In this document: positions 7,786 to 64,000 of the stretch, in pieces
Layout: the number at the start of each line of letters is the position of its first letter
Numbering within the stretch: position 1 is the stretch's first letter
Origin: Fasciola hepatica
Taxonomy: Eukaryota; Platyhelminthes; Trematoda; Plagiorchiida; Fasciolidae
DNA length: 64,000 nt
Reading direction: 5' to 3'
Assembly (NCBI GenBank): GCA_948099385.1
Contig: CANUEZ040000179.1
Location: 12,612,501 to 12,676,500, forward strand
Notes under the pieces: model-generated
Database searches by the model: none
Told to the model about the DNA's origin: nothing
The model's input: only the letters and a program-made list of their open reading frames with translations
Program-made: the position numbers and the translations under genes

Positions 7786-8069
7786 TTTGATGCCACTACC
7801 CGGGACCGAATGGTACGGGAGGCCTTGCTGGTCGACCCGAAGTGGGTCGTAGAGATAATTGTGTTCTTTGAACTGCGAAGCTGTTTGGATGTGGCCCGGT
7901 TGAGGCCTCGTGAATTGGACTTCCGTAGTGAAGAAAAGGGCGGCCTAATTGATTGCTTGGTTTTGAGGCACTTTGTGGTCTGCGGTGGTCCTGTAAAATG
8001 GCCTGCCCGAAGTGTGCTCCTAAGGAAGTAACACTGTGCGCAGTGTTCTTTCGTTCATGAGCAGCAGTG

Positions 8070-11332: not shown

Positions 11333-11390
11333 ATGTTGTTAGTCTTGAGTGTGGCTGTGCTGTTCCTGGCCCACACAAATGCGGTATGTG
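11333..11390 (+). CDS. MEG exon 1: start codon and signal peptide
   Basis: 58 nt encode [19 protein letters not shown] plus the first base (G) of the next codon, then donor GTAAGT. The hydrophobic core [12 protein letters not shown] followed by small residues (NA) before VC gives a classic signal peptide, with likely cleavage after ...HTNA. The start context CCGAAACATG is acceptable. The phase-1 end sets the phase for every later exon. Confidence 0.9.
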
Positions 11391-14043
11391 GTAAGTGACT
11401 TCATCCTCCTATCTTCCATCAAGTCTACGTTCCCATGCAAACACTTATTTTCTCATCTTACTTGTAATTCAAGGAGACTGGACAAGCTTTATAGACGTCT
11501 CAGCAATGCGAATTCGACACCATTCATAAAGTAGGGGCATAGAGCCTAGCACGACCGGGACAGTCAGGTATACTTTTGTTAAACTTTGTGCAATGATTTT
11601 GGTTTTATTTCGTATCGTTGGGTTTAAGCTGTTTCTCGTTGGTAACAGAGGCCAGAGGCCGTTTGTCATCACTCTCAGGCATGCTGTGAACCGTGTGCCT
11701 TAGTATCAAACCAAGTTCAAACCATAAAGATTTTAACAAAAGTGCTTTCAGAAACAATATGCCTCTCAATGATTACCAGTTTGTCATTCGCCACAATTGT
11801 TCGGACCCTTGTAGGGCTAGGTCAGAAAGTATTAGGCGGTTTCCCAGATGAATTGTACCAAGTTTTCCCTTCGAGAAAAGCTTTTGGAATTTGTGCGCGA
11901 AGATTAACGTATATGATGCAACCGTACAGTCCTTACTGAAGTTGAGATTATAAGCTAGGCCCTATTTGAGTGATATTCGTGCCCCAGATCATCCGAGATG
12001 CTATAAGAGTTCAAGTTCAATTGATAAGATTTCTTGGTTCAAAGTAGAACACGGAAGCCTCCACGGGTATAAAAGCGCAGATTTCATATTTCTAATGGCT
12101 GTCTTTATGTGAAATTTGTTTGGGGTCTGCTGTGTCCAGCCCATTTTACAAAAATGACGAGTCTGAACTCGTCAGTTTGCTAAAGTCTTGTCTCCGAGAG
12201 AAATAACCAGCTCGCAACATGTGCGAAGACTTTTTGCTAGGGAAACCCAACGGGTTGAATTTGACTATGCGTATGGAACCAATCGTGATCATGATGTTAT
12301 TTGAATACAGCAAAAGCATGAATACAATGACGATCGATGAGACGATAAAAACGTGAGAGCTTTCTTTGTCCATGATTTGGATGATTTTGTTCCGATAAAG
12401 TGCACCATTCTTGATCCTAATTCAGGAATAAATCTGACGGGAATTAGAACTCGTGTTGCCAAAAAAAGCAGTTGCCGAACTTTGATAGAAGCTTTATCTG
12501 TTCGTTTCTGTTTTAATGCCTTCGCCGGTCAGTTCAATTATTTTGCCGTTCATGCTTTTGAATTTTTTCAAAGGACAAACTGGATGTTGTGGTAAGTAGC
12601 CTACAGTTTGACATCTATTGACAGAAGCATTCAATCACCGTCTCTAGCCGTAGCACGAATTTCGGTTATTAGGGATTGCTAGTCAGGAAAGTCATTGCGC
12701 AATTTGGTCACATTATGACAAAACAGTCGATGGTTGTATGCTCTAGGACGGGTATCTGTCCAAACCAGAACAAAAGAAGCGAAATAACAAGTAGAACTTC
12801 TTTAGAGTCGTGATAGCTAAATACCTTCTGGCCAGTATTTAAATATCCAGATAGTACTTATCTAAACAAAAACAACATGGATTTGGAAAAACAATGCTCG
12901 TTTTGTCACACGTTTTTTTCATGGCTTTGGATTGTTCGGTTATTTAGAGCTTTTGTCACCTTGAAGATCTGAGTATCAAACCCGGTCACCGTCTCCAGTC
13001 ACTATGGTGTTAGTCAGTAATTCACCGTGTTACGTTGCTTCTCAGCACACCTGACTTACTGGGACCTAATGTGGTTCTCCTTCACAACAAATTTCAGGAT
13101 AGGGTGATCAACTATCTCGAATAAAGTACTGAGCCATATCGACTGTGAGGTATGATGCCCTTCTATTTTACTCACGCGCAAGCGTGCAGTAAAAATACTA
13201 CAGCTCGATCAATACTTGTGAACGTCTAATGATTCCCAGTAATTGTAGCCTTTCAGTGACTCTGCCTAACTTGAACGTTTTGTTCTGGTTTTCATATTCC
13301 TTTCACTTGTTCCTTGTTAACCTGCACGCTGCTTAGAAGATAAGATAAAGTAGTTGAATGCCACTGTTATACTGCGGCAATCATTCTCCGTATTATATAA
13401 TTTATAAAATAAATCCCAATTTTTGAGGCAAGTAATAAGCTGGACCGCGAAAATTCCTCTTATTCGTCATCACAAAACCGCCGCTTTTAGACTGAGCGTG
13501 AGATTCGATGTTGTAGAGTAAAGAAAACTGCACTGGAATAATCTAAGTCAAGAAAAACTCGACTGATCAAATTGTTATTCAGGATACGGCCCAAAAAGAA
13601 ACATTCACATTCGAAATAATCTTTCCGCTATGCAAAAAATAGGTTTTTGTGTTTCTTATCCGATAATCCTTGTATGAAGTTCATGAAAGATTACTTGCTC
13701 CCCGTCATCCTTCGCCTGGAGATATCCACTTGGGAGAAATTTGTTACTTCTTCCGGACGTACAGTTCAATGTCCACATCCAAGGCAATATATGCATTTTG
13801 GTAGGATTAAAACCTAGGGCAAAAAGGCTGATAGTGATTACAAATTATGCAGTAAACTTAACGGGAAACAGAAATTACTGTCACTCGTGACGGTGATTTT
13901 CTTCTCTCTTACGATACGACGTAGTCCATATTGACAGAAAACGACAAAACAGATCATAGTCCACTCGTTTTAGATAACGCATGAATGGGTTAAATGTTTT
14001 GAAAAGATTCCACTGAATTTCACTCTTTCTCTTTCTTTCTTTT

Positions 14044-14097
<54 letters not shown>

Positions 14098-17000
14098 TCC
14101 GTCTCTTCCAAAACCAATCTCTTTTCTAGAAGCCAATTCAGCTGCAGCTCCTTTATGCTGCGATATGAGAAGATATATGGGTAAGTTCACGACCCGAAAA
14201 TCCTAACAGGGAATGATACTCCGAAGTTTTGAATATCTCTCCCAATATGGACTCTTTTTCGTCGAATGATGTTGAATGAATATTTTCATAGCACTGTATT
14301 GTAAGCTGGCGAAAAAACTCCATTCTAGTTCGATATGTGAAAAGAGAATTGTTGAGTATATAAAACTTAGAAAACGTTGCTGAGAGCATATTTGAAATTT
14401 TAAGCCAGGCATGACAATAAAATTGATCCCTGATCGGTGTTAGCACAAGAAAACGTTTTTGGAAGAAACGGTTGTGTATCATACTCGGAAGAGGTTTCCA
14501 GTCTGGCCCAATCGAAGCTTTCTTAGATATTTAATTTTTTTCGATTTCGCTTTGAAGAAAAAGCTGCGAACCACAGTTGGAAAGAATTCACTAATGGTAC
14601 CGAATGGGCGCCTCTGATCAAGAAACAATGCAGGCGGCAACCTGTTGATAACAGGTTTGATTCAAAATCCACCAGTACGGTTTTTAGTCCCTTCGAATGA
14701 AACATCTGTAAACGGTGTTCCCGTGGTGTTTTATCAGTACTTTCGCTGCTGATTATGTATGGTGACTCATTTTACAAAAATTAATCCGCAAACAATGTTA
14801 AGCACACCGTGAAAATCCATGGAAATTGCTTGAAACCAATGGACCGTGTTTGAGCTTAACCAAAAGTGTACGATTACCGTGTCATAGTTGCTACTAGAGA
14901 CTTGCAGAAAATGCCACGCTGCGTCCACAAAAATGTGCTTGTACGTCACGGTAAAAGAGACAATCATTTACGAAAGGTTGTGTATTAGCACACTTATTTC
15001 AAGTGAAAGGATTTGAATATAAAAATTTTACTCCATTTGTGTGACCAAGGTTGTATTCCGAACGATCAGGTCAACATTAAAATTTTGTCTTCATGGTCGA
15101 AAACGGTCTCTGGGTCATTTCTTACCACTAATAAACTCTAAAACATGATATGATTAAGTGACAATGTGTAGAATGGAATAAGTCACTTACAGTTGACCAA
15201 CAATTCAGCATCAGTACGTTCTCTCCTGGGTAACCTGAGTTGTAACTGGCTGGGCACTGTTTTCTTCCTTAACTCAACTCACTGCCCTACCCCTCCCTTC
15301 CTATGGCAACAGCCGGAGAAACTCCAAGTCCATGTGAGCACTTTTTTCCTTTGTTCTTGAATAAATGAAATCAAAAAGCTTAGGTTCATTCGAGAGTTAA
15401 CTTAGTCTTTTATGGGCTGTGAAGAAATCCGAAATACGCTTGCTAAGGGAATTTATTTTTCGAGAAAATACCCACATGTAGCACGCAAGAATCAGTATTC
15501 CTCCACGGGCGGTTGCTTGCAGTCGTTCCTGAACAACAGAGGCAGAAAACGTCATGAGGGAAAACGCTCACGATGTGCATCACAACGGTTCTACAGGTAC
15601 AATGATAGAACACTGATATGGCTGCTGACAGCTTGCTGTCTACACGTGTAGAACTAAAAATGACATATCTGTGACTGGTATGCTATTGTATTCTTAACTA
15701 CGAATTGTATCATCTAAATTTACAATTACCTTTCAGGTGGAAAGCATGCTTTCGATAGAATCTGTGAGAATATATGATCAGTTTTTTATAGTTTCATTCA
15801 CTCATTTTTCATGCGAATACTCTAAGAAGAAATTAAAGTCAAAATTCGACATTTTACCTATTTCTTGAGGGAACTGTATTATACTACAAAATTAGTGGTG
15901 TGCAGGAATGCGTGCAAAACGAACATCCCTGTAGAACTAAATTGGGATATGCTCACAGTTTACCAACTGTCAAGCAGCTCAAGGCATGCGTGTTTGACGT
16001 ATAAAGAATGATCATCAAAGTACATACTAGCAGAAATTATTATGGCTCTTAGATTTGTTTCGAATGGATTTGTCACTCGGTATCCGAGCACATATCATGG
16101 CTAGATTCCCTTGAACATTGTAAAACACTTTTCTGTGGATCATTGGAAGTAACCTCCAATGTCCTGCCTCCGAGTTCATGCTGAATCTCGAACGAGGCAG
16201 ACGAACAGGACTGAGACCCAAATAACAACCGTCAGACCATAATGGCTCTCTTTCCTCACGAGTATACCAGATTAAACTGTACTTATCATCGGCCAAATTC
16301 ATCATCTCATTGGTAACACCTGCTCCTTTCAGTAAAAGCCTTTTCATTATGAACCACATGAATTGAAAGCTTAGATAAACAACGTACATAAACATCAGAC
16401 TACATTACTCAAGACTGATCTCTTTGGACAAAATAGTATCCGCACAGTCACGTTATCCGAATCAAAATCAAGCAACTTGTGACTGTTGTAAGTGTTTTGG
16501 TCACGAGATGCCTGTTTACCAGTGGACAGAAGCATACCTGTGAAATAGACTGTAACCGATGGGATCGGATGCCACCATAGACTGAATATATGGAAGGCTG
16601 CGAATGAAAGAAAAGTTCACTGATGATGGAAAACCCTAATCTATCATTCTCTGTAATTCAACCGACTTGACTAAGACCATTCTGTGTTCGTGAAATTTGG
16701 TCATTTCTCGAATTTGCAGAACGTATTGTCCTTTTTGGTTACATTTTACCTGCGAAACTGAGCAAAACCTGATTCTCGTTGTCTGGTAGCCAAGAGTAGT
16801 CCACAATAAAAGTCCGTCTCGACGTTACACCTGACCTACTGGCTTTTGTTTTGATGTGTGTTCCCCAAATCGAATTCTCACAGTTATGTCCACAGGTCGT
16901 CGATAATAAAGATTTAAGGTGTTTCGGATCACGTACATGTCGCATTCATCACTCTCATGCGCAAGCATAAAATTGGTTGAGCAATCAACAGTTGCTGACT

Positions 17001-19601: not shown

Positions 19602-19662
<61 letters not shown>

Positions 19663-37600: not shown

Positions 37601-38491
37601 TCGTATCGGTTTCCTGTCGTTTTGGCGATGGATCTGTTTATCGTATGAGTACTTGGTATATGAGGAGCTGTTGAGGGTTCGGAAAAATGTCATTTCGTGT
37701 ACGAATATCGCCCCAACAACTGTCCAGCTGAAAGTCAATATACCATACCGGCCATCATCATTCGTCTGGATCGGGATAAAACGCGTTTAGCTTTGTTGGT
37801 GGATTTCAACTAGCGAGGCCTCGATTGTTGGGGAAATCTTTACTGTTATGACTGTAAAAGTCCCGGAATTCAACGGCAGGAAGTTACCTGAATAAGTAAT
37901 AGTTTTTTTCTTCAAAATAATTCTTTATGGTTCGTTCCATGAGAGGTTTGTAATGTAAAGTCATGGAGCACTGTTTGCCTACTAATTATTCACTGTATGA
38001 CTTGTAAATGTATACGCAACTTCAAGATCCAGTTCATATGATTACCCTCCAATTGGGCAGATTTAAAAGTGATCGTATCTGATTTTAAGAGAGTAGCCAA
38101 AGGGCTACCTACATATTGGCCACCCACATGATGAACTCTATACCGATAAGACTGTAGAAAATCTTGGGGAATGAAACCTGACCACATGTTTCCACGCCGT
38201 GTATGAACTTTGTCTTTTGAATAACATTTAGGTTGATTGAATGTAAAAGCTATCTTGTTCCACTTCACATCATAGTTGCGGTCCACTGGTAACCTCGAAA
38301 ATATGGTTTAGCCTGAATTTTGATCATTGCTTTTCGCGGCATACAAGCGAACCACAAGGGTCATTTTCTTAAAACGTCATCACTACTTGTTGGTTATGGT
38401 GCATATAAAATGAAATACTTCTGCTTTAATGCTGTCGTTGACGACCACAAAAGTGCTTATAGGACATCCGTATGCATCAAAGTCGGCACTA

Positions 38492-38590
<99 letters not shown>

Positions 38591-40858: not shown

Positions 40859-40929
<71 letters not shown>

Positions 40930-55900: not shown

Positions 55901-58900
55901 CAGACATCAAATGGGAATATCAACACGATTCACCTATGGGAATTTCTTTTGTTATCGCTTCGCCATTATTCTGGAAGAAAAACACCTTCGGTTGGCTGTT
56001 ACTATCAAAATGATCAGATCTTGGTCACTGTCTAATGTCGCATATAATCAAAATCACTTCTGAATAAGTTATTTATTCTGGTTCACGAAGACGACAAATG
56101 ATCACTAACTCGTGTGCTCATGTGTTGTTTATTTTTCTCAAGGTTTGATCTGTAAGTTTTTATGAAATAAAAATTAAATTTAATATTCGGTATTGTATAT
56201 GAAGCGGATACACTGACAAAAGCAGATTTCAAGAGTTGCTTCCTGTAAATTATTTTTTTGCAAACAGTTTGACCGCGTTTGCCAAGTTGTTCAATAGCCT
56301 GGGTTTATTATTCTCCATCCACGCAGCAGTGGAGAAATTATAATCACAAATTCCTCAAGAGTCCCAATCCAGTGACTTTCAGCCCCATTCAATGGTGGTT
56401 AACGCAGCTGCCATTGGGGCATCCAACCCTAACCTCCGTTGGAAACATTGGTTCCCGGCACATATTTTATTAGAGCAGTCAAATACTGTTTCCCAACTCA
56501 ATACTCTTTCTGTCAAACTGTTTGAGCAGCCATCGTGCTTGGATATGATGGAATAGAAGCTGCTGACTGCGAAAGTCAGCTGAAGGTGACAGTCCCCGAA
56601 CCCTGGAATTGAGGAGTTCAATCGGCGAAAGCAAACATTTTATCTTACGGGGAACCTGCTGATGCCATGCCTTGTTCACCGCTGTCCCTAAATTCAGCTT
56701 CCGGATGACCAACCTATCGTTTTCCCCCGTCGATGTGTGAATCGGCTTTCACTTTTAATATACCCAGTTCTGGGACAAGAACACTTTACTGTTATACTTG
56801 TTACCGTTCGCTTACTAAGGTTCTTTTTAGCTTTTCGAGATATTTTTAAAAAATCACGGAGTTTCAATCTGTATACTTGTAACGATTCCGTGACACAGTG
56901 ATCATCACAGTAGCTGTAAAATTATAAATTCGGGACTAGCTTAGTTACTAAAACCACAATCCTCCTCTTCTTCCCCGGTGTTTACTCTCCAGCCGTAATA
57001 AGTGAGTTTATTTCTGGACTCATTCAGCAAACTTTGATAAATGTTTATCTGTTGAAACAGTGCTTTAAAAAGCCCAACAGAATCGATCATTTATTGATAC
57101 GAAAATTAGTCGTCTACGTTGAAACTGGGCTACTACCGCGGAGAGCCTGTCAGAAGTGAACTACGCAAATGAATGTGCATAATTTGGCTTCCATTATTAT
57201 GTCTTCATATGGCACCCGAAACAGTCCGTGCCAATAAAATCGGAATATAGAATACACTGTTTTTGTATGAAATAAACCCACCGTTACTTAGACCTCTCTG
57301 AAAATTATCGGAATCGTGTGTTTTGCACCTCGTCAGTTTATGAACGAACTAAGTGCTCTTCACTCAACTGCTTTCACTTCGAAAAACAGCGCAATTCGGT
57401 AAGTCTGTCGTTCTGGTTTCACACAAAACAGTTGAAAAATAAGACTCTCCTATAAACTGAAAGTGATCCAGGTGGATATATTGTGTTATGGAAAAAATTA
57501 CTTGAATTATCTCAACAAACAAAACGGCAAATAGATAAAACCGTAGAATCACTTGTTGTGGGGCTGTGCTGATTCATCTCGAGTGTGTGAGTATGCCTCA
57601 CGCGTACCCTCAGGTGTGCCACCAATCGATACGTTTCTCGCGTCCACCTTCACAGGTTCACAAATTAGCGTAGTTCATAAATGGCCATATATGACTTGGA
57701 TTCCATGTCAGCTAGAACCAATCAGAATAATGTTCGAGCTCCACACTGCACTGTGAATGACTTGTTTTATTACAGTTAAAGATCTTATGACTTTTGTCCA
57801 ATCCATGTCATTTCAGTGGGAGTTTTACCGACCTGAAAGTGTGATGAGAGAATGTTAATAATTTCATATTATACCGCAATGACCTGGTTGAAAACTGCAT
57901 TGTCTAGTGTTGGCGACTAAACCTAACGTGAGGATAGAAAAAGGACATGTTCATAGGGAAAGCAAAGGCTGAAGTGATTCAAGGGTAGTGAGCAACGAAC
58001 AGAGATAAGGGGCTACGATCGACATGTTGTGCCAAAACATATCCCGAACTTGAATCATTTCGTCGCCGTATGGTCACAGCAACTGCACAACTTGAACCAA
58101 TGATTTTTGCATGCACAAAACAGGCACGAAAAGCGGTTGACTGTCGGCACTGAGATGGCCAGTTAGAGTGAACGAACATTTTCCTGTTAGAAGCGAGAGG
58201 GTACAGAAGGTATAATATAGGCAACAAATTTCAGCAAGGTACAATTACATCATGTAATTCGGAGTGGGATCACCACTGATATAATTTCGTAATAGAATGG
58301 TATCCTGACTGGACAGTCAGTTTATCATTCGAAGTGGAGCAGGACACAGACAACTGATTGATATAGTTATTACTGGTGGTAAGAAGTAATAAAGGTTGGC
58401 ATTATTCACTGCATCAAGTAGCGATTCTCCCATAAATGCAATGGACGAGATTGAACTTAGGGCTCATTCATTAGTTAATGAAAGTCTTATGGTTTCCTTC
58501 CACATTTTTCTGTTCTAACAAACAGCATTGATGAAGCATTTGAGTAAGTGTTATAAAGATGATAACTGCTATGCACAACATTTTGCCTAATAAACATGCA
58601 TGTTTGCATGAAAAAGCTATTGAATTTGGCCCCATAAACTTGTGGTCTATGGTTGTTTATCCGAGAAGGTTTCACTAAGTTATGCTGGGATTGGGCTGAA
58701 GGCAGTAAAAGCCCCAGCCGCTACCTCCAAGTATTCATTCTATGGTGAAATGAAAATCGAACTTGAAATATTGTAATGGTGATTATCAGATAATGCTATG
58801 TAAAGGTAAACAGTTTCAAGATAGATTGCAGGGGTATTTTAAATCGTACATCACTGAAACTTCATGCTTTCTGAGGGATTATTCGTGCATGTACACTTTC

Positions 58901-61900
58901 TCAAGGCAGACGTGATTAACAAAGTATTGTGCAAACTCTCCTTGAGTATGTCTGTGTCATCTAGTGCTGTGCTACTTACAACCTGTTGGTAGCGTCAACA
59001 GTTCTGATTCCATGTATCGAATAAACGACTGAGAAGCCAAAAGGCAATTAACCAACTAATATCCAATAAAAAGGGTAATTGCTTATGAAGTGGAAGCTGG
59101 ACTGCCGTGTAGGAGATGAGGGAGAAAATGTGTGTGAAAGAGATAGATAGAAAGAGAGATACCAGTCAGTTACGGTGATCCGTTAGAAACCGAACACATT
59201 ACTTCACTTTCTCCAACTATGAAGACTAACCAGTATTCCTTTGCTTTTTTAGTGAATGCTGTTGGTAAGTGATTTCGGACAATAATTGTGATTTCCTAAA
59301 TCGTAAAACCTTGCTGGACCGAGATCATCTGCAAGGTTTTTAAATCAACACTGCCAGTACTATGGGTCTAAAAGTCTGATCCCACCCAAAATACTTCTGA
59401 GGGACCGAGATGAAAAGTCTGTTCACTGGTTTAAAATCTTCAGACTTTTGACATGTCACTGACTGCGGCTCCGAAAAGCGCATCCAAGTACCATAGTAGG
59501 GCCTCATTTCCCTTTATGTATGTGCACCTTGTCAGGAAGTAGCGCTCATTCCACAGATTGTTTCGTGTAGTTATAGCGCAGATTTCCGTGTACTGTTTTC
59601 AGACTTCAGTAATGACTTGCGAGTTAATTTGAATCCTTCACACAGACAAGTGTCACAGAAAGTGTCACTTTTTTGGCATTCGATAGGTATCCGAATTCTC
59701 CTAAATGAAGTGCAGATAAGCTGTGAAACGTATTTACAGATTAGTCCCAAAGATGAGTGGATTTTTTTTTATTAGAAGTTCACATTTTCATACCCTGAAC
59801 TGGGGATGATCTTCACAATCAACATTAGTTCTGAAACCCATTTATTGTTTGTGGAATGGGACTAAATGAACGGTTTAAATGATTCTGTTCGCTTATCGTT
59901 ATGTCCAGCTAGGACCAGCAAACCAGGTTGACTGCTCCAATATTGTATTCTATTCCATTTGTAGGATTATGTGAGTTGCTTTCTTATTTCTAATTGTCAT
60001 TTCTGCTCAAACTGTGTATGCGTAACAGCCCGGTGTCCGCATACACCATAAAGCAACACGAGGTTGTTATTTTTGTTGTCTTGGTTGCAGCTGACTTTGT
60101 GTGGATCTGTTTTTCCCGAAAATTGTGTACAATGAAAAAAATTATCTGTCCCGTCACTGTGAAATTAAACTCGCTCGGCTCGAGTTATTTTATATTGAGG
60201 TTAGTAATGGTCAGTGAAGCGAAACTAATCAAGACATAAGAGCCGATGCTTTGCACAGAAACGTATTCTGACACGAAAGAATAACTTACCCTAGAAGTAA
60301 CCCAACGGACCTCAGCCTGCACCACCTGAATAATCTTCGAGTTACAATCAAGCCTACACTACTTTCACTTTTCACTCACTGTACAACTTATAAATCGGTC
60401 TGTTGTACAGTACGTCCAAAAACTCGGAGTTACCTCAATTCGGTCGAATTCCAATTCATACCACTGATACTACTCTCTCTCTCTCTCTCTGACGTTAAAC
60501 AATAGTGCCTATTGTAAATTTTGGGCTACTGGGAGTAGTATCAGTTGTATAAACTGAAATTCGACCGAATGTCAGGATTTTGACCAAACTGAGGTGATTC
60601 CAAATTTTTTGGACACAGTCGGGTCCTGGGCAGCCCCAACTTGTATGAGACACAATGAGATCCGTTGGAGTTTAGAGCCAGCGTTTTTTACACTGCTCCT
60701 TCTCGTTCGCGCACGCTCCCGTACACACGCGAAGATTCATAATGGGTTCGTGATCATTCATGATTTATTTTTTGTAATACCTGAGACTCTTCGGTCGTCT
60801 GAAGCATCGCACCTTAAGGGACTCGTAAACAATGATTAACCTATTGGTTTTGGTAGTAACATCTTCCATACAGCAGTCTATCCGAGATAAACCTTACCCA
60901 ATGTTCACAAGTTATTTATCTGTGGCAAACGACTACAAAGTAAAATTCCAAATTTCATGATGGATTTATCAATCTTAAGAGCTACTATAAACTGCACTCG
61001 CTAGTCATATTAAACGAATGGCATCTGACGCCTTCAGTCGGCTTATTAATGTTTGATAACATGGTTTGTGTACTCTTTTTTGGTTTTGCTTATGCGTTCT
61101 TCTTCGATCATTAAACTCACTGCACGTAATGGAAAACTTGTCAAAGCCTATGCTGATTTAGTTAACGCACTTCAATCAGTCCGATGTATATCATCTTACT
61201 GGGCACGTGCAGAAATTGTGGGCGCTGGATCGATTCGAATTACTTGCCTCCCATTTTCATGGAATTAGTCACGGTTTGCTTCTGATTCAACCGATTCTGT
61301 TATGCAATCATGTAGGTGGTCAAAGCGGTAAGTCATTCTCAAAATAGACCTTTTCCTGAAACACAAAGGTAAAGAATATGACTCAGGCAAACAAACTCCA
61401 TGAAGATTTCGCCCTGTGATTTTACGAAAAACCGCATAAATTTGGTGGGATATGAAAAATGAAAACTCACGCCCTGTGAAAGGCATGTCAGATACGATGC
61501 AAATTTCTACCTGATAGGTTGTTTGTCCGTTGCGTTGCTTTTCGCGCTCAGCTCTGTTTGTTCAAACATTTTGATTGCCAAGTCAAGATCTCAACACTTG
61601 GATGTAAGAAACGCTTGAATCAAGATGCACAAAACAAAAGATTCTTTGCCCCAGTTCTACCAGTTCATTTGCGAATTATTTTGGAGGTTCGAGAGTGCGA
61701 GAGCTGCTCAACATCTTCACTTTTCAACGCAAATCAGACATTTTTTGGTTTATTTTTAATTTGGCTGGATACGGGTTTGATGCAACCCACGTTACGTCTC
61801 CCTAGTACAATTTATGAGATAAGCGATTGTTCGAATGTGATGCCACCGCTGCTCGATACCGTTTTCGTCACACCAAGCCAGTGTTCAGTGTTTTGAAAGC

Positions 61901-63905
61901 CGTGTACCACAGTTGCAATCATAGTTAGGGGCTCGATTAGGTTAACATCGTTGTCCCAGTTAGGCTTCTGTGGCCATAAGGTCTATCTCAGGAATCGGCC
62001 GTGTTGGCTGAGAGACGGGCTGGTAGCATCTAAAGCCAGTGACTGATGTGGTGTGGAGGAGAAGCGAAGAAGTCTCGATATGCACCCTGGATAAGATTCG
62101 AACGGCTGTTCGTTTCCTACTAGTTTCCAGTTAGAACTAGGTGAAAAAGCACTAAAGATGCTTCCATGAATTTCTGACCATGAAGTATCCGTGTCGTCAC
62201 TGCTTGCTGAATCATGCAATGTACCGTTAAGTGTAATCAAACAAAAAGGATTTAACCACAATGATGATGGAAACAGATATGGCAAGAGTCTCACATACGT
62301 AATTTCCAACGTCCGTTTTTCGTTTTTAAAGGAGATTTTGAAATATTTCGGACTGTGTCAAATGTAAACCAATGCGGATTTACTTTGTGTCACTGATGAA
62401 ATCAAAATAAGTCAAAAACACAAAACACGTCTCGTTGGCTGAATTCGTTATCTAGTTTTTTAATGTCGTTCTCCATAAATTCTAGAAAACTGGACATTTT
62501 TTTGAGACCTACCGACACCAATCCACTGAGAACTTTGGGATTAGCACTGACTGAAATTCGATTGTAATTCCTGTGGAACTTGGTAGATTGATAATCTGAT
62601 AAGAGCTGTCCATTTCTATTCAGCATGTTCCATCTTTGATGCACTTTTTTTTGTTCTTCCTTCCATACTCCTCTTTTGGAAACGGAACTATGTCGGTATG
62701 TCGAGAATTCTAACAAAATGAAAATTGGGGCGATGTTTTTCGGAAGCTTTTTTCTTACCTTATTCTGTTTCCATTATCTTTGCTTTAAATTGGCGATACC
62801 ATCGCGAATGTATTTGGGAAGAATGGTCGACCAACTCGGACCATATAGCCTTTATTGGGCAAAAGCTCTTTGTTCTTTGATCAACGGGGCTTCGCAAATC
62901 TCTTGGCAGTTCTCTTCTCCGTTAAACGCCGAATGAATTTCCCCACAATTCATGCAAGTTTAAATCCACCGACCGCACATATGGTATACACAGTTGAACA
63001 GAAACGGTGTGCGGTGTCGATCATTTTTCGGAAACAGCTGAAAGTGTGAGTTAGCTTCGAAGAATCACAGAAGAAAGTGACATTACACTGATATCGACGA
63101 AGGGTACGAATTTCCGTCCAATGGATGCCAAACACATCCTCATCCTATTCACTTCGTCATGTGATGTAAGAAAATCATAGATAAACATGAAGTTCGCACC
63201 AAACAGTCTGATAGGTCACAGATGTTTTTGCACAGAAGACAACTGACTAGTTGTGAAATGTTTGCTATTGAAAAATTGAAATATGGGTAAAACTCCGATA
63301 TACTGTTCAAACATAAACTGGTAAGCCTCGAGCTGAAGAGGAACCAGGAATGGTATAAACTTGGTGTGAAACGAAATTCGATGGCTTAGTGCATGGAAAA
63401 ATGGGAATTTTTTCCGTTTGAATGGGCAATTGTAGAACACCTATCTTACCCGACCAGTATTCGTCACGTGAGCATTAAAAGATTTCGACTGTTGATCCCG
63501 AGGGAGAATGTTCAACTCCAGCCACTTATGGCCAGCTTTCGTGGTGGATAACTCTCTGCTGCCTCACAGATCACTGCCTTATCTGAACTACTGCACACTT
63601 TTCGGGCTTCTCCATTTCTATGTCTCATGTTCATCATTGTTGGCTCTCCTGGATAATGTAGCTGATCCATCGGTTAAATGACAACTACTTCACTGCCTTC
63701 ATTAAGAAGCATAGGACGGGAACGTTGAAAACATATGCACTAATGTCTTCCATGTTAGTCGTTGTCCATAATATTAAATATCTAATACCACGAAAATTGT
63801 AAATATTATCGCTATCACGTAATATTAAGATACAATCTGTTGAATCGAATATCATCCAATTCTGTTTCATGTATCATCTATTTTGTATAGGTTCAACAGG
63901 GTTCT
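11333..63905 (+). CDS. giant micro-exon gene (MEG), secreted protein, 3' end outside window
   Basis: This is one transcription unit of about 52 accepted exons. Exon 1 encodes a signal peptide and ends after the first base of a codon; every later exon is a multiple of 3, so all introns are phase 1 and all internal exons are symmetric. Joined, they stay open throughout (about 405 codons). Donors are mostly GTAAGT or GTGAGT and acceptors end in CAG or TAG, mostly behind pyrimidine tracts. Flatworm MEGs share this design; in schistosomes they are secreted, many from oesophageal gland and tegument, and alternative splicing yields variants. The function here is unknown. Predicted segments change along the protein: short amphipathic or hydrophobic exons, then an Asp-rich exon, a Cys-rich block, and a Gly/Met/Ser tail of minute exons. 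Exon choice was made by eye, so individual exons may be wrong, but the overall pattern is very unlikely to arise by chance. Confidence 0.85.
12574..12591 (+). CDS. MEG exon 2 (18 nt)
   Basis: Follows the strong acceptor TTGAATTTTTTCAAAG and precedes donor GTAAGT. In phase 1 it reads GQTGCC, with two Cys, and leaves G. Confidence 0.75.
14023..14098. repeat. CT-rich tract followed by (TA)n
   Basis: A pyrimidine run ending in (CT)n passes directly into (AT)n. The tract ends about 30 bases before the exon 3 acceptor, so its length might influence recognition of that exon. Confidence 0.85.
14130..14180 (+). CDS. MEG exon 3 (51 nt)
   Basis: Acceptor CAATCTCTTTTCTAG, donor GTAAGT. Seventeen codons: [17 protein letters not shown], leaving G. 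It carries a CC pair. A minus-strand open frame across the same bases is treated as a shadow. Confidence 0.85.
15313..15333 (+). CDS. MEG exon 4 (21 nt)
   Basis: Acceptor CCCTTCCTATGGCAACAG, donor GTGAGC. Encodes AGETPSP and leaves T. Confidence 0.75.
15737..15763 (+). CDS. MEG exon 5 (27 nt), module A first exon
   Basis: Acceptor TTACCTTTCAG, donor GTGAGA. Encodes CGKHAFDRI. It resembles exons 8 (CLKSFMEKI) and 12 (CLKTALQQF) in length, in the leading GT of the exon, and in the Lys at position 3. Confidence 0.85.
17102..17125 (+). CDS. MEG exon 6 (24 nt), module A second exon
   Basis: Very strong acceptor GTTTTTCTTTTATTTATCTAG; donor GTAATT lacks the +5 G. Encodes LDLLQTQM, clearly similar to exon 9 (VELLQKQY), which supports the call despite the weaker donor. 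Confidence 0.75.
17415..17568. mobile_element. foldback element, copy 1
   Basis: Arms 17415-17470 and 17513-17568 are inverted repeats of 56 bases with two mismatches. The 42-base centre holds CAGTTACCGCGGGTAACC and TTTCTCAAG. The same core occurs in the foldback at 40013-40223 while the outer arms differ. No coding capacity. It sits between MEG exons 6 and 7. Confidence 0.85.
18021..18038 (+). CDS. MEG exon 7 (18 nt), module A third exon
   Basis: Acceptor CTCCGTTTTCGGATTTAG, donor GTAAGT. Encodes GARSTD (CARSTD if exon 6 is skipped) and leaves T. Confidence 0.85.
18550..18576 (+). CDS. MEG exon 8 (27 nt), module B first exon
   Basis: Acceptor TTGCATTTCCAG, donor GTGAGT. Encodes CLKSFMEKI, a paralogue of exon 12. 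Confidence 0.9.
19007..19030 (+). CDS. MEG exon 9 (24 nt), module B second exon
   Basis: Acceptor TTTTTGTTTCTCTAG, donor GTAAGT. Encodes VELLQKQY, a paralogue of exon 6. Confidence 0.9.
19603..19660. repeat. (TA)n microsatellite
   Basis: Uninterrupted TA repeat of about 58 bases within intron 9. Confidence 0.95.
20012..20110. repeat. SINE-like repeat, copy 1
   Basis: Contains TAGTTCAATGGT (A-box-like), GATTACCGTCTACCACCAAA, GTGACCGAC and GGGTTTCAACCCC (B-box-like). The block recurs at 24140-24245. Probably a tRNA-derived SINE relic. Confidence 0.6.
20551..20574 (+). CDS. MEG exon 10 (24 nt), module B third exon
   Basis: Acceptor TCTCTCGTGGTGGTTTTAG, donor GTAAGT. Encodes NLSADTST, a Ser/Thr-rich segment, and leaves T. 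Confidence 0.85.
20742..20765 (+). CDS. MEG exon 11 (24 nt), weaker
   Basis: Strong acceptor TATATTTACCCCTTTAG; donor GTAATC is weak. It reads CYLMKLLL in phase and leaves A. If it is skipped, exon 12 begins with Cys (as exon 8 does); if used, exon 12 begins with Ser. It could be an alternative cassette or a false call. Confidence 0.5.
21147..21173 (+). CDS. MEG exon 12 (27 nt), module C first exon
   Basis: Acceptor CAATTCAAACTCACAG, donor GTATGT. Encodes (C/S)LKTALQQF, matching exon 8 in length and in the LK pair. Confidence 0.85.
21563..21582. repeat. short GT-rich tract
   Basis: A (GT)n run of about 18-20 bases within intron 12. No function inferred. Confidence 0.7.
22002..22025 (+). CDS. 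MEG exon 13 (24 nt), module C second exon
   Basis: Acceptor TTACTACTATACCAG, with TCACTTCTTCTACC further upstream; donor GTGAGT. Encodes DVSLKSHL and leaves G. Confidence 0.8.
22911..22934 (+). CDS. MEG exon 14 (24 nt)
   Basis: Strong acceptor CCGTTTTTTATTTCAG, donor GTAAGT. Encodes DCMNKIVN and leaves A. By position it could be the third exon of module C. Confidence 0.85.
23302..23325 (+). CDS. MEG exon 15 (24 nt)
   Basis: Acceptor GTTTTGTTCATCAG, donor GTAAGT. Encodes NGGKVDGC and leaves C. Confidence 0.85.
23474..23497 (+). CDS. MEG exon 16 (24 nt)
   Basis: Acceptor AATCATCTTACAG, donor GTAATT (weaker, like exon 6). Encodes LPKLMSPW and leaves G. The preceding intron is only about 148 nt. 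Confidence 0.7.
23628..23645 (+). CDS. MEG exon 17 (18 nt), weaker
   Basis: Acceptor TTTCCACTGTTTAG is good; donor GTAAAC is weak. Reads GRCIRS and leaves C. It resembles exon 26 (RCTKNI) in size and in its Cys and basic residues. It may be an alternative cassette. Confidence 0.45.
24140..24245. repeat. SINE-like repeat, copy 2
   Basis: Shares CAGTCGGA, GATTACTGTTTACCACCAGA, GTGACCGATGG and GGTTCAAACCCC with 20012-20110. The GGTTCAAACCCC segment is a good polymerase III B-box. Confidence 0.6.
24495..24518 (+). CDS. MEG exon 18 (24 nt)
   Basis: Acceptor GCTATTACATTTCAG, donor GTATGT. Encodes (V/L)RSRIPFM depending on the upstream exon, and leaves T. An overlapping GT two bases upstream would break the frame. 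Confidence 0.75.
25305..25328 (+). CDS. MEG exon 19 (24 nt)
   Basis: Strong acceptor GTTCCCATTTGCTTTTCAG, donor GTGAGA. Encodes FPSYLPPL, a proline-rich hydrophobic segment, and leaves G. Confidence 0.85.
26117..26140 (+). pseudogene. decayed copy of MEG exon 20 with dead donor
   Basis: After acceptor CTTTTCTTCAG come 24 bases that would read AARMQAMG, almost identical to the AARMQTMG of exon 20 (28015-28038). The donor that should be GTAAGT is ATAAGT here. An internal GTATGC at 26123 could in principle make a 6-nt exon instead. Most likely a duplicated exon that has lost its 5' splice site. Confidence 0.75.
26141..28014 (+). other. long intron between exons 19 and 20
   Basis: No confident exon. 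A possible 36-nt cassette lies at 26683-26718. Minus-strand open frames at 27100-27372 and 27591-27988 have no recognisable domain. Confidence 0.5.
28015..28038 (+). CDS. MEG exon 20 (24 nt)
   Basis: Acceptor CGATTTTTATACAG, donor GTAAGT. Encodes AARMQTMG and leaves A. It is the functional partner of the decayed copy at 26117. Confidence 0.85.
30510..30530 (+). CDS. MEG exon 21 (21 nt)
   Basis: Acceptor CCCCGTACTGGTCCAG, preceded by CTTTTGTCTTATT; donor GTAAGT. Encodes MLAQNRA and leaves C. Confidence 0.7.
31244..31267 (+). CDS. MEG exon 22 (24 nt)
   Basis: Strong acceptor GTCTTTTCTAACCTTAG, including a CTAAC branch-point-like motif. Donor AAG/GTTGGT has +5 G but lacks the usual +3 purine. 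Encodes RLRSLWKQ and leaves G. Confidence 0.6.
31505..31610. repeat. clustered repeat, copy 1 (partial)
   Basis: Contains TTTACAGCCGTAATCTCACT, GAGAGTCCGTT, CACACGGGGATTCTCCC and AAAGTTATTTCA, which recur in order in copies 2 and 3. Confidence 0.75.
31680..31860. repeat. clustered repeat, copy 2
   Basis: Begins with GGAAGCACACGACCGGTTA and continues through CTCATCAGGTATGC, CGGTACTCTTCCG, TTTACAGCTGTAATCTCATT, TTGAATCG and GAGTCCATTTT. Confidence 0.75.
32272..32295 (+). CDS. MEG exon 23 (24 nt)
   Basis: Strong acceptor GGTTTTATTTTTATCAAAG, donor GTGAGG. Encodes AMKLQQKR, a basic segment, and leaves G. It lies inside the repeat cluster without being part of the repeat. Confidence 0.8.
32780..33100. 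repeat. clustered repeat, copy 3, and start of another
   Basis: CCCGGAAGCATACTACCGAG, CTCATCAGGTACAC, CGGTACTCCTCTG, CAACTGTAATCTCATTTGAG, AGAGTCCATTTT, CACACGGAGATTTTTCC and AAAGTTATTTCACGG match copies 1 and 2. A further GGAAGCACAAGACCACG start appears near 33076. Confidence 0.75.
33110..34719 (+). other. long intron, nothing recognised
   Basis: Part of the 2.7-kb intron between exons 23 and 24. Short GT-rich sequence lies near 33564-33592. No confident exon, RNA gene or domain. Confidence 0.5.
34720..34943. mobile_element. mariner-like MITE, copy 1
   Basis: Left end TACATTTTGTCCAAACTG, then GATCACCTCAATTCGGTCC. The right end mirrors it with TTTTGACCGAATGGAGGTGA and TTTTTTTGGGCAGACTGTA. 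TA at both outer ends fits a TA target site. No transposase frame. The same element occurs at 60405-60622. Confidence 0.8.
35029..35079 (+). CDS. MEG exon 24 (51 nt), Asp-rich
   Basis: Acceptor CCTTGTCTAATTTAAAG, donor GTAAGT. Encodes [17 protein letters not shown] and leaves A. Ten of its 17 residues are Asp or Glu, unlike any other exon except exon 27 (VDDDID). Possible cation-binding or charge-spacer segment (inference). Confidence 0.9.
35459..35476 (+). CDS. MEG exon 25 (18 nt)
   Basis: Acceptor TTATTTGATCTATCTTAG, donor GTAAGT. Encodes RCTKNI and leaves G. Confidence 0.85.
35737..35754 (+). CDS. MEG exon 26 (18 nt)
   Basis: Acceptor GTTTTCAAAATTTCAG, donor GTAAGT. Encodes EKPKCS and leaves T. 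Same length and Cys/Lys character as exon 25, only 260 nt away. Confidence 0.85.
36609..36665 (+). CDS. MEG exon 27 (57 nt)
   Basis: Acceptor CGTATATTTCTGAAACTAG, donor GTGAGT. Nineteen codons: [19 protein letters not shown], leaving T. It contains an acidic VDDDID stretch and one Cys. Confidence 0.85.
36666..38493 (+). other. long intron with unexplained minus-strand open frames
   Basis: Part of the 2.8-kb intron between exons 27 and 28. Minus-strand frames at 37111-37480, 37448-37738 and 37990-38286 give protein-like sequence (for example [12 protein letters not shown] and [18 protein letters not shown]) but I recognise no domain. They may be relics of a mobile element or processed gene. 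Confidence 0.35.
38494..38588. repeat. (TA)n microsatellite
   Basis: Uninterrupted TA repeat of about 95 bases, the longest in the window. Immediately after it (38626-38680), CCCCGGAAGCACATGACCGG matches the start of the repeat clustered at 31.7-33.1 kb. Confidence 0.95.
39453..39479 (+). CDS. MEG exon 28 (27 nt)
   Basis: Acceptor TATCTGATGTTCAG, donor GTAAGT. Encodes CPEKFNDTE, with a possible N-glycosylation sequon NDT, and leaves T. Confidence 0.85.
39626..40099 (-). CDS. unrecognised minus-strand open frame
   Basis: 157 codons, the longest uninterrupted ATG frame apart from those I reject as low-complexity. No family recognised; its start lies inside the foldback element at 40013-40223, which argues against an intact gene. 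Possibly a relic of a mobile element. Confidence 0.15.
   Translation of the reverse strand: MRKVTHGNRNVDVLHLPTTLCCQHYNFHKWWNSLITWRKIRGFFLRCETDGHHGDLKIVGPRVRFSQLLISVLIDSPHSAAYHFLNGLVWSALFVPEMKVIPWSFFTNFLVIPLRGIHEQKLDRIINGEDTDLYVQNDLFLQLPTWKIHTIWLTEKR
40013..40223. mobile_element. foldback element, copy 2
   Basis: Arms of about 95 bases (40013-40107 and 40130-40223) are near-perfect inverted repeats. Each carries CGTTTCGGTTACCG and GGTAACC, the core shared with the element at 17415-17568. The loop is about 22 bases. No coding capacity. Confidence 0.85.
40614..40628 (+). CDS. MEG exon 29 (15 nt)
   Basis: Acceptor TTTTTTTAATAATTTTTAAAG, donor GTAAGC. Encodes CGCLS and leaves G. Compare exon 33 (GCACG): same length and spaced Cys. 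Confidence 0.8.
40861..40927. repeat. (TA)n microsatellite
   Basis: Uninterrupted TA repeat of about 67 bases in intron 29. Confidence 0.95.
41420..41431 (+). CDS. MEG exon 30 (12 nt)
   Basis: Acceptor TTTGTTGTGTTTCACAG, donor GTAAGT. Encodes VSKR and leaves A. Exon 34 also begins VSKR. Confidence 0.85.
42318..42464 (+). CDS. MEG exon 31 (147 nt), Cys-rich domain
   Basis: Acceptor CTTGTCCATCTGTTGACAG, donor GTAAGA. Forty-nine codons, by far the longest exon. It starts [15 protein letters not shown], continues through [10 protein letters not shown] and DDCIPTGC, and ends [13 protein letters not shown]. Eleven Cys in 49 residues, often as CxC or CxxxC, suggest a compact disulfide-bonded fold in a secreted protein. 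I cannot assign a known domain, though Cys-rich secreted domains of this size are common in parasite secretions. The length keeps phase 1-1, so the whole domain could be skipped without a frameshift. Confidence 0.9.
43382..43411. repeat. (GT)n microsatellite
   Basis: GT repeat with one interruption, in intron 31. Confidence 0.85.
43666..43674 (+). CDS. MEG exon 32 (9 nt)
   Basis: Strong acceptor TTTTTTTTTTGTTACAG, donor GTGAGT. Encodes GLS and leaves G. Confidence 0.85.
45064..45078 (+). CDS. MEG exon 33 (15 nt)
   Basis: Acceptor ACTTATCAAAATTTACAG, donor GTACGT. Encodes GCACG and leaves G. Confidence 0.8.
46055..46086. repeat. degenerate (TA)n tract
   Basis: TA repeat broken by CATA and GTA units. 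It lies just upstream of the exon 34 acceptor tract. Confidence 0.8.
46115..46141 (+). CDS. MEG exon 34 (27 nt)
   Basis: Acceptor TCACCTACCAAACTTATAG preceded by CTCTCT; donor GTAAGT. Encodes VSKRGILKT and leaves A. The first four residues equal exon 30, which suggests the two exons share an origin. Confidence 0.85.
46850..47060. repeat. dispersed repeat, copy 2
   Basis: Matches 4921-5135 (CTCACCAATGAAAA, GTGGAAGC, CGCTGTTTCATCCTCGTT). Located in intron 34. Confidence 0.6.
47150..47155 (+). CDS. MEG exon 35 (6 nt)
   Basis: Acceptor TTGGATTTTTCCAATTTCAG, donor GTAAGT. Two codons in phase (MA) and leaves G. Confidence 0.8.
47461..47489. repeat. (AG)n microsatellite
   Basis: GA/AG repeat with one C interruption in intron 35. 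Confidence 0.85.
47639..47692 (+). CDS. MEG exon 36 (54 nt)
   Basis: Donor GTAAGT is strong; acceptor GGTCGACCGATTAG has a weak pyrimidine tract. Eighteen codons in phase: [18 protein letters not shown], leaving T. Two Cys nine residues apart ([12 protein letters not shown]) plus exon 37 starting with Cys give a spacing like small disulfide-rich or EGF-type segments. The in-frame length supports it despite the weak acceptor. Confidence 0.65.
48379..48396 (+). CDS. MEG exon 37 (18 nt)
   Basis: Acceptor TATGGTTGCTTTTCAG, donor GTAAGT. Encodes CSYMGS (GSYMGS if exon 36 is skipped) and leaves A. Confidence 0.85.
48397..49851 (+). other. intron between exons 37 and 38
   Basis: No confident exon. 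A possible 18-nt cassette at 49166-49183 has a poor donor and is listed among rejections. Confidence 0.5.
49852..49863 (+). CDS. MEG exon 38 (12 nt)
   Basis: Acceptor TTCTCAAATAAAAACTTGTAG, donor GTAAGT. Encodes KLMG and leaves G. Confidence 0.75.
51266..51268 (+). CDS. MEG exon 39 (3 nt), candidate
   Basis: CAATACACTTTTCAG is followed by GAA and then GTAAGT. Read as a 3-nt exon it keeps phase and adds one Gly codon across the junction. Such an exon is at the limit of what the spliceosome can define, so it could also be a recursive splice site (an acceptor almost abutting a donor). Confidence 0.55.
52211..52216 (+). CDS. MEG exon 40 (6 nt)
   Basis: Acceptor CGCACAACCCCTCTCCAG, donor GTAAGT. 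Encodes SM and leaves C. Confidence 0.75.
52535..52540 (+). CDS. MEG exon 41 (6 nt)
   Basis: Acceptor TTTTATCAAATTCAG preceded by TTTTTCATTC; donor GTACGT. Encodes LG and leaves G. Confidence 0.75.
53044..53170. repeat. tRNA-derived SINE-like repeat
   Basis: TGGTCGAATGGTATAGAGCG resembles a polymerase III A-box and AATTTCGAATCCCC a B-box about 40 bases later. GGTGG and CCACC at the ends could pair. It reads like a tRNA-derived SINE head, with the body possibly continuing to about 53450. Confidence 0.6.
53864..53869 (+). CDS. MEG exon 42 (6 nt)
   Basis: Strong acceptor TTCTCCTTTTCACAACAG, donor GTAAGT. Encodes GM and leaves A. Confidence 0.8.
   Translation, partial: E
54328..54330 (+). CDS. 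MEG exon 43 (3 nt), candidate
   Basis: CATTCTGCTCTAAAG, then TGG, then GTAAGT. Keeps phase, adding a single Met codon across the junction. Same caveat as for 51266-51268: it may be a recursive splice site. Confidence 0.5.
54853..54870 (+). CDS. MEG exon 44 (18 nt)
   Basis: Acceptor CTGTTTTTCTACTAATGCAG with a perfect CTAAT branch-like motif; donor GTGGGT. Encodes GPLNPT and leaves A. Confidence 0.8.
54871..56142 (+). other. intron between exons 44 and 45
   Basis: No exon seen. The acceptor-like AATTTTTTTCAG at 55441-55452 is not followed by a usable in-frame donor. No recognised repeat. Confidence 0.5.
56143..56151 (+). CDS. MEG exon 45 (9 nt)
   Basis: Acceptor TTGTTTATTTTTCTCAAG, donor GTAAGT. 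Encodes SLI and leaves T. Confidence 0.8.
56993..57001 (+). CDS. MEG exon 46 (9 nt)
   Basis: Acceptor CCCCGGTGTTTACTCTCCAG preceded by CCTCCTCTTCTT; donor GTGAGT. Encodes SVI, nearly identical to exon 45 (SLI), and leaves A. Confidence 0.8.
57390..57398 (+). CDS. MEG exon 47 (9 nt)
   Basis: Acceptor GCTTTCACTTCGAAAAACAG, donor GTAAGT. Encodes TQF and leaves G. Confidence 0.7.
58526..58543 (+). CDS. MEG exon 48 (18 nt)
   Basis: Acceptor TTTTCTGTTCTAACAAACAG with a CTAAC branch-point motif; donor GTAAGT. Encodes ALMKHL and leaves A. Confidence 0.8.
59253..59264 (+). CDS. MEG exon 49 (12 nt)
   Basis: Strong acceptor TTCCTTTGCTTTTTTAG, donor GTAAGT. Encodes MNAV and leaves G. Confidence 0.85.
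59965..59970 (+). CDS. MEG exon 50 (6 nt)
   Basis: Acceptor TTCTATTCCATTTGTAG, donor GTGAGT. Encodes GL and leaves T. Confidence 0.8.
60405..60622. mobile_element. mariner-like MITE, copy 2
   Basis: Left end TACAGTACGTCCAAAAACTC then GTTACCTCAATTCGGTC. Right end mirrors it: TTTTGACCAAACTGAGGTGA and TTTTTTGGACACAGT. A (CT)n tract at 60473-60491 is internal. Same family as 34720-34943; both share AGTATCAGTTGTATAAA-like internal sequence. No transposase. Confidence 0.8.
61316..61327 (+). CDS. MEG exon 51 (12 nt)
   Basis: Acceptor GATTCTGTTATGCAATCATGTAG, with a moderate pyrimidine tract; donor GTAAGT. Encodes CGQS and leaves G. The closest other exons in sequence are the GC-type exons 29 and 33. 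Confidence 0.75.
61328..63890 (+). other. long intron between exons 51 and 52
   Basis: No further exon, repeat or RNA gene recognised. A 104-codon minus-strand frame (62402-62716) has no recognisable domain and is not called. Confidence 0.5.
63891..63905 (+). CDS. MEG exon 52 (15 nt), last in window
   Basis: Acceptor CATGTATCATCTATTTTGTATAG, donor GTAAGT. Encodes GSTGF and leaves T. The clean donor shows the gene continues beyond the right edge, so the stop codon and 3' UTR are not in this window. Confidence 0.8.
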
Positions 63906-64000
63906 GTAAGTCTTCTGGAGCATAACACATTTACTTTAGAATGAAATCAGACAGTTATCTTCAATAACAAACAATATAATTAAAACAAGATTCTGGACAC

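Follow-up and report, generated by a model that had tools for sequence, protein, structure and literature searches.

Does the + strand of this 64,000-nt stretch of DNA (the window) carry one giant gene built from dozens of micro-exons? A preliminary description had read it so, with a signal-peptide exon, dozens of micro-exons after it and about 52 symmetric exons over more than 52 kb, while conceding that lengths divisible by 3 were taken when several sites were available. Because of this preference, and because a great many AG and GT dinucleotides can be paired in 64 kb, we used a splice-pair scan that is blind to length. Acceptors (a) and donors (d) were scored by generic metazoan consensus weights drawn from general knowledge, with no length rule, and the resulting pairs (3–60 nt) were judged by length modulo 3 and by open frame. 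With d ≥ 3.5 and a ≥ 3, all 13 pairs on the + strand past position 11390 were multiples of 3, compared with 5, 4 and 3 pairs of remainder 0, 1 and 2 on the minus strand (n = 12). At a+d ≥ 6 the counts for remainders 0/1/2 were 33/3/5 on the + strand from 11391 (n = 41; binomial P = 8 × 10^-10 for 33 of 41) vs. 9/10/11 for the minus strand over its full length; at a+d ≥ 4 they were 59/15/18 vs. 37/29/24. Before any frame filter, phase 1 was open in 32 of the 33 multiple-of-3 pairs, phase 0 in 23 and phase 2 in 27. The excess runs through all three thirds of the + strand (a+d ≥ 5: 13/3/3 in 11391–28100, 16/2/4 in 28101–45400 and 15/4/2 in 45401–64000). An array of splice pairs with an excess of multiples of 3 and an open phase 1 is thus a real and strong observation, and the scan gives statistical support to the proposed design, a signal-peptide exon followed by dozens of symmetric phase 1-1 micro-exons.

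Chance, helped by the choice of lengths divisible by 3, would be one alternative; any 64 kb will contain many splice-like sites, the length choice was admitted, and the middle third of the minus strand also leans to multiples of 3 (10/5/2 at a+d ≥ 5). This explanation is exceedingly improbable, since the excess appears without a length rule and is absent from the whole minus strand (2/5/6 and 4/7/7 in its first and last thirds, at the same threshold) and from shuffled sequence. After retraining of the position matrices on the strong exons (33, scored by leave-one-out), pairs scoring ≥6 numbered 46/6/9 on the + strand and 6/8/9 on an equal length of the minus strand. The same matrices gave 3/0/1 in the 11.4 kb upstream, a small and non-significant excess (3 multiple-of-3 pairs in 11.4 kb vs. 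46 in 52.6 kb). We therefore reject chance and reader bias, and the conceded preference for certain lengths does not explain the array.

Chaining the sites gave a similar picture. The best chain of phase-1 symmetric exons (penalty 4) had 59 exons and a score of 149, compared with 18 exons and a score of 24 on the reverse complement and at most 21 exons and a score of 42 in 20 dinucleotide shuffles. Phase 1 scored highest of the three phases on the + strand, yet the phase-0 chain (50 exons, score 112) and the phase-2 chain (47 exons, score 128) still lay far above the phase-1 shuffles, because a short exon is often free of stops in every frame. When length and phase were both left free, the chain contained, at the highest penalty, 32 multiples of 3 among 38 exons (5 of 22 on the reverse complement); its start phases 1, 2 and 0 numbered 23, 13 and 2, so it was not purely phase 1, the frame being displaced by a small number of other exons. 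Between 11391 and 64000 the + strand has 35 copies of the donor hexamer GTAAGT and the minus strand 16, and the model described below uses 29 of the 35; GTGAGT is evenly spread (18 and 17). Stops fell in 0 of 340 codons read in phase 1 vs. 18 of 392 in phase 0 and 18 of 340 in phase 2, for exons partly selected for phase-1 openness. A k-mer search of the flanks found nothing clear beyond the polypyrimidine tract; some low-count 6-mers stood out, uncorrected for multiple testing.

The gene model (Table 1) keeps 51 of the 54 phase-1-open candidates (3–60 nt, a+d ≥ 4) and adds exon 1 and an exon of 147 nt. The three candidates removed by hand were 29473–29475, a TG repeat at 43383–43397, and 63900–63905, which overlaps the exon at 63891. 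The model has 53 exons and 1,234 coding nt, or 2.3% of the 52,573 bp from 11333 to 63905, and is still open at the right edge of the window; the median intron is 870 nt. Full inclusion would give a protein of 411 residues and 44.6 kDa with 36 cysteines. From the out-of-frame classes (15 and 18 pairs) and the open share on the minus strand (22 of 37), about 10 of the 54 candidates are predicted to be false, so about 44 micro-exons would be real. The earlier count of about 52 exons agrees with the score-based model in size, but only about 44 have statistical support. Likewise, the view that strong sites leave no choice of exon holds for about two thirds of the internal exons (33 of 52) and not for the 19 with moderate sites; under the retrained matrices 8 of the 52 score below 2, the 147-nt exon among them. 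Single weak exons of the model should therefore not be trusted. The one long exon that the preliminary description mentioned was located at 42318–42464, and no stop occurs in the exons or at any of the 52 adjacent junctions. A pseudogene is unlikely, as the model preserves both the reading frame and the splice sites.

Table 1. Predicted exons of the model, all on the + strand. Sites are strong at a+d ≥ 6 and moderate below (generic weights); the retrained score is that from the matrices trained on the strong exons.
Feature	Position	a+d	Sites	Retrained score	Remarks
Exon 1, 58 nt coding	11333..11390				predicted signal peptide (19 residues) plus first codon base; ends in phase 1 at GTAAGT
Micro-exon, 18 nt	12574..12591	6.3	strong		GQTGCC
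Exon, 51 nt	14130..14180	7.2	strong		Cys-containing
Micro-exon, 21 nt	15313..15333	5.8	moderate	0.2	
Micro-exon, 27 nt	15737..15763	5.8	moderate		
Exon, 51 nt	16437..16487	4.0	moderate		
Micro-exon, 18 nt	18021..18038	7.0	strong		
Micro-exon, 27 nt	18550..18576	6.7	strong		in helix-like stretch (helix moment)
24-nt exon 1/12	19007..19030	10.2	strong		
24-nt exon 2/12	20551..20574	6.5	strong		
24-nt exon 3/12	21251..21274	4.7	moderate		
24-nt exon 4/12	22002..22025	6.0	strong		
24-nt exon 5/12	22911..22934	9.7	strong		
24-nt exon 6/12	23302..23325	9.0	strong		
24-nt exon 7/12	24495..24518	4.4	moderate	1.7	donor GTATGT
24-nt exon 8/12	25305..25328	8.3	strong		
24-nt exon 9/12	27750..27773	4.9	moderate	-1.3	
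24-nt exon 10/12	28015..28038	7.7	strong		
Micro-exon, 30 nt	29772..29801	6.5	strong		
Micro-exon, 21 nt	30510..30530	7.3	strong		
24-nt exon 11/12	32272..32295	6.5	strong		
24-nt exon 12/12	33252..33275	6.1	strong		
Exon, 51 nt	35029..35079	5.3	moderate	9.6	acidic DDDDEDDD run
Micro-exon, 18 nt	35459..35476	7.0	strong		
Micro-exon, 18 nt	35737..35754	7.4	strong		
Exon, 57 nt	36609..36665	4.6	moderate		
Micro-exon, 21 nt	36966..36986	4.4	moderate	-0.7	donor GTAGGT
Micro-exon, 27 nt	39453..39479	6.0	strong		
Micro-exon, 15 nt	40614..40628	4.1	moderate		
Micro-exon, 33 nt	41068..41100	5.3	moderate		
Micro-exon, 12 nt	41420..41431	10.6	strong		donor shared with signal-like ATG frame 41373-41431 (phase 2)
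Exon, 147 nt	42318..42464	a 3.4, d 3.3	strong	-0.9	49 residues, very Cys-rich
Micro-exon, 9 nt	43666..43674	13.1	strong		start of exon-size shift
Micro-exon, 9 nt	44923..44931	7.1	strong		
Micro-exon, 15 nt	45064..45078	4.2	moderate	1.0	
Micro-exon, 9 nt	45381..45389	5.5	moderate		donor GTAGGT is weak; could instead be terminal exon 45381-45580, or end of first exon from 45305/45344
Micro-exon, 27 nt	46115..46141	4.0	moderate		
Micro-exon, 6 nt	47150..47155	8.3	strong		
Micro-exon, 18 nt	48379..48396	9.2	strong		
Micro-exon, 3 nt	51266..51268	7.6	strong		
Micro-exon, 6 nt	52211..52216	5.9	moderate		
Micro-exon, 6 nt	52535..52540	5.6	moderate		
Micro-exon, 6 nt	53864..53869	9.3	strong		
Micro-exon, 3 nt	54328..54330	4.8	moderate		
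Micro-exon, 18 nt	54853..54870	7.2	strong	1.3	
Micro-exon, 9 nt	56143..56151	7.6	strong		
Micro-exon, 9 nt	56993..57001	8.1	strong		
Micro-exon, 9 nt	57390..57398	5.1	moderate		
Micro-exon, 18 nt	58526..58543	6.5	strong		
Micro-exon, 12 nt	59253..59264	10.6	strong		
Micro-exon, 6 nt	59965..59970	8.8	strong		
Micro-exon, 12 nt	61316..61327	4.5	moderate	-0.3	
Micro-exon, 15 nt	63891..63905	8.3	strong		or 63900-63905 (6 nt); last before edge, array open

Exon 1 is preceded by in-frame stops and is, among the candidates listed, the most hydrophobic signal-like first exon (3.16 in a hydrophobicity scan). The runner-up among those listed, at 41373–41431, scored 2.98, and the best on the minus strand 2.34. 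That second ATG frame, with 19 signal-like residues of its own, runs up to the strong donor of the exon 41420–41431, which it reaches in phase 2. Upstream of exon 1 lies a strong 51-nt splice pair (1202–1252), open in phase 0 as well as in phase 1, which may be part of an adjacent gene.

After exon 1 the model begins with Cys-containing exons of 18–51 nt, continues through a helix-like stretch, in which the helix moment predicts an N-terminal amphipathic helix spanning three exons, and then enters a block rich in 24-nt exons; farther on lie the acidic exon (35029) and the Cys-rich one of 147 nt. Within 19007–33275, twelve exons measure exactly 24 nt, compared with only one such pair on the minus strand. 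Their likeness to one another was not beyond chance in shuffles, and self-comparison of the window found no tandem exon duplication; the 24-nt exons therefore share a length and not a sequence. Tandem duplication of these exons was not supported by the total pair identity of 13 24-mers, the twelve and an additional candidate at 17102–17125, which was 498 vs. 473.5 ± 17.6 after shuffling. The additional candidate lies outside the model and has a weak donor, GTAATT; its peptide xDLLQTQM resembles xELLQKQY of the exon 19007–19030. An intron repeat about 70% identical between its copies (31685–31849 and 32784–32948) flanks the 24-nt exon 32272–32295 and may be a trace of segment duplication.

Farther downstream the array changes character. 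Exons are mostly tiny from 43666, the median exon length is 24 nt before 45381 vs. 9 nt from there on, and the best split by exon size falls at 43666, about 43.7 kb (P = 7 × 10^-8, the best of all splits tried and uncorrected). Cysteines make up 34 of 328 residues before 45381 vs. 1 of 64 after. Such a change at 43.7–45.4 kb could mark at least two micro-exon genes in tandem, the first from 11333 to ~45.6 kb and the second starting at ~45.3 kb, or at a hidden first exon, and running past the window. A signal-like ATG exon in phase 1 (45305/45344–45389) could start the second, and an open terminal exon with a stop (45381–45580), followed by AATAAA at 45710, could end the first. Against this, the donor at 45390 is weak (GTAGGT), the acceptor at 45381 fits an internal exon too, and strand and phase are constant throughout. 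Of 24 acceptors tested between 41068 and the end of the array, 5 lead into read-throughs of 55–89 residues, that at 45381 (66 residues) among them, so it is not special; and past 45.4 kb no signal-like first exon is found among those listed (d ≥ 2.5). Separate genes are thus unlikely. Given the weak donor and the unremarkable read-through, the whole array is likely one gene, which we clearly prefer to two genes or an early 3′ end, and a span of over 52 kb, still open at the window edge (the last exon is 63891–63905), stands provided that it is. Taken together, the array from 11333 to the edge is probably a single giant gene, and its predicted product is a secreted protein rich in Cys, some 400 residues long or longer; that its exons form one transcript and that the protein is secreted we infer.

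What could such an array be for? All internal exons are symmetric in phase 1, and single exons or runs of them can therefore be removed in frame. In the mechanism that we consider likely, exon 1 would supply the signal peptide, and since every internal exon would have both its boundaries just behind codon position 1, splicing of an exon to any other farther downstream would keep the frame; by omitting single exons or runs, the spliceosome could produce related secreted variants from one locus. Variation by exon skipping is reported for the micro-exon genes (MEGs) of flatworms, which have a like design, in extracts of PMC7653826. In the 53-exon model, stops at junctions that skip 0, 1, 2 or 3 exons number 0/52, 0/51, 0/50 and 0/49 (202 junctions), whereas permuting exon order within blocks of 6 to 53 gives 5.6–7.4 expected stops (P = 0.0003–0.0025); conditional on clean adjacent junctions, P is 0.002–0.02. 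Skips of 4 to 11 exons produce 2, 1, 1, 3, 0, 1, 0 and 1 stops, and among all ordered exon pairs 55 of 1,378 contain one. Adding back 29473–29475 and the TG repeat leaves one stop at an adjacent junction, and P for skips of 0–3 is then 0.001–0.012; the TG repeat 43383–43397, if real, would create this stop. The tolerance of the junctions suggests that skipping of nearby exons has been selected for, a signal that the strongest exons taken alone do not carry: with those 34, the same test gives 3 stops and is not significant.

That loss of signal is one reason to weigh a different reading: genuine micro-exons, none of which is ever left out, a single invariant protein as the product, and a symmetry that has remained from the way in which the exons were gained. 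The predicted amphipathic helix across three exons would also suit an ordinary folded domain. We regard a fixed protein as rather unlikely, given the skip tolerance of the full model and the skipping reported for genes of this design (PMC7653826, in part).

Database searches placed neither the protein nor its longest exon. The full model and two parts of it returned 2,945, 45 and 154 candidates from a set of 5.8 billion proteins, none with E ≤ 10, a weak negative as the coverage of flatworms and insects in that set is uncertain. No relative of the model protein was found in Pfam or the PDB. For the 147-nt exon, pattern matches numbered 25 in viral contigs and 593 in those of prokaryotes, none of them confirmed, in a search from which the window's own genome was possibly excluded, and its best PDB match, natrin 1 (E = 0.57), was not significant. 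Rfam at gathering scores and a tRNA scan found nothing in the window, and Pfam on 70 of the 128 open reading frames of at least 75 residues gave no match above the curated cut-off. Matches below it (E = 9 × 10^-4 to 0.16) included CBM_48 (E = 0.0022), EI24 (E = 0.0055) and a Tc3-type helix. The last of these is an open frame at 28739–29068 on the + strand, within the intron 28039–29771, that comes near the Tc3 transposase helix-turn-helix (E = 9 × 10^-4, 19.4 bits, cut-off 21.1) and is likely a decayed Tc1/Tc3-type transposon. An inverted repeat at 40014–40223, with 94-nt arms 91% complementary around a 22-nt spacer, looks like a small non-autonomous transposon; part of it (40068–40118) matches 17465–17515 over 51 nt at 86%. 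Other repeats are a dispersed pair at 34772–34936 and 60438–60615 (71% identity, with an inverted match between 34727–34807 and 60535–60615) and a direct repeat upstream of the gene at 7617–7747 and 8068–8201 (76% identity).

Identity as a flatworm MEG is plausible. A published rule, in extracts of PMC7653826, asks for at least 7 exons, of which half or more must be shorter than 70 nt and a multiple of 3 in length and must include 4 or more in a row; 51 of the 53 predicted exons conform. In MEGs the 5′ exon is described as coding all or most of the signal peptide (PMC4671649, in part), as exon 1 is predicted to do by the hydrophobicity scan, and this together with symmetric exons (PMC4671649 and PMC5825161, in part) agrees with the model. 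In extracts of PMC10399815 and PMC5825161, about 75–80% of MEG coding sequence lies in exons of 3–36 nt; the share here, for a gene incomplete in the window, is 66% in exons ≤36 nt and 83% in exons ≤69 nt. Long flanking exons at both ends are described (PMC4671649, in part), and the 3′ end of the one-gene model lies beyond the window. The 7–20 kDa given for MEG proteins in part of PMC10399815, a range typical rather than strictly defining, is exceeded by the full-inclusion model, itself still open. A Trp-containing motif after the signal peptide, described in the cited part of PMC10526429 for S. mansoni only, was not seen by eye in the model, which has only two tryptophans, both far from the N-terminus. 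As an example of the class and not of this gene, host-cell lysis and binding of host immune proteins are reported for MEG-8.2 (PMC12998952, in part). The statement that known schistosome MEGs commonly have some 10–20 micro-exons agrees with the 10–20 short exons per S. mansoni gene in PMC10526429. A literature search that covered subscription journals thinly found no flatworm gene with as many exons as here, and no MEG passage was found in a paper on Echinococcus canadensis (PMC5327563).

Genes of insects bear on this identity too, as the array could be an effector gene of the hemipteran type (the aphid bicycle, cassette and megacycle kinds), or come from a third convergent lineage, rather than being a flatworm MEG. 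In PMC9168663, exons of bicycle genes nearly all start at codon position 2, the phase seen here, and megacycle genes combine more than 100 micro-exons with a signal peptide; one of them, in M. sacchari, has 118 exons over ~100 kb. For KQY1a, 37 exons spread across 45.7 kb are given (PMC7495047, in part). The published bicycle generalized linear model (GLM) returned logits of +37.5 for the 53-exon model and +23.4 for the strong subset. However, the GLM favours any gene with many such exons and so does not separate the aphid from the flatworm reading; neither the start at codon position 2 nor the positive logit is specific. Repeated units as in megacycle proteins were not detected, with no exon-exon similarity beyond shuffles and no tandem exon duplication in the self-comparison. 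The model has four loose C..Y..C stretches; paired CYC motifs are not clearly present. Aphid genomes have about 28–30% G+C, unlike the 40.1% of this sequence (CpG observed/expected 0.83), a value which we take, as a lead only, to fit flukes better than aphids. An aphid-type or third-lineage gene is quite unlikely. The MEG reading keeps its giant symmetric phase 1-1 design with a signal-peptide exon, but no homologue was found for it and the design is common to aphid genes. As to size, which had been called exceptional, the gene exceeds the 10–20 exons of S. mansoni MEGs, yet aphid precedents of 37 and 118 exons mean that it is not unprecedented among animals; it would be exceptional for a flatworm and not for animals.

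The most specific form of the flatworm reading is tentative, and we give it somewhat less than an even chance: a MEG of mega size with at least 50 freely skippable micro-exons, in which a tail of exons mainly 3–18 nt long comes after the block of twelve 24-nt ones, and junctions selected such that skips of up to three neighbours make no stop, evolved independently as the counterpart of an aphid megacycle gene. If this is true, the generation of variants from a single locus by micro-exons reaches the scale of aphid effectors in a flatworm, and animal parasites and plant parasites have converged on one gene design. The locus would in addition be a large natural test of how the spliceosome recognizes exons of 3–9 nt and of whether junctions are selected for skip tolerance.

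Compared with known systems, the gene is like the pea aphid KQY cassette effectors in coding for a small secreted protein from a huge gene with tiny exons, whereas in KQY1a 33 of 37 exons are ≤15 nt (PMC7495047, in part) and no sequence relation to the present gene was found. With aphid bicycle genes it shares phase, exon size and a strongly positive structural classifier, but those have ~17 exons on average and carry paired CYC motifs, which are not clear here. Megacycle genes share with it the signal peptide, the great number of micro-exons spread over tens of kb and, as reported for the bicycle kind, a codon-position-2 start of the internal exons; that of M. sacchari, in the part of PMC9168663 cited, differs in its 2,092 residues and 15 repeated units, the present protein being shorter. 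S. mansoni MEGs have 10–20 exons, most commonly of 15 nt, and proteins of 7–20 kDa, whereas the present gene has ~44–53 exons, most commonly of 24 nt, and a protein of at least 44.6 kDa. What it shares with the MEGs of schistosomes and tapeworms is a 5′ exon with a predicted signal peptide, micro-exons that are mostly symmetric, long introns, a lack of known protein relatives and, likely, exon skipping.
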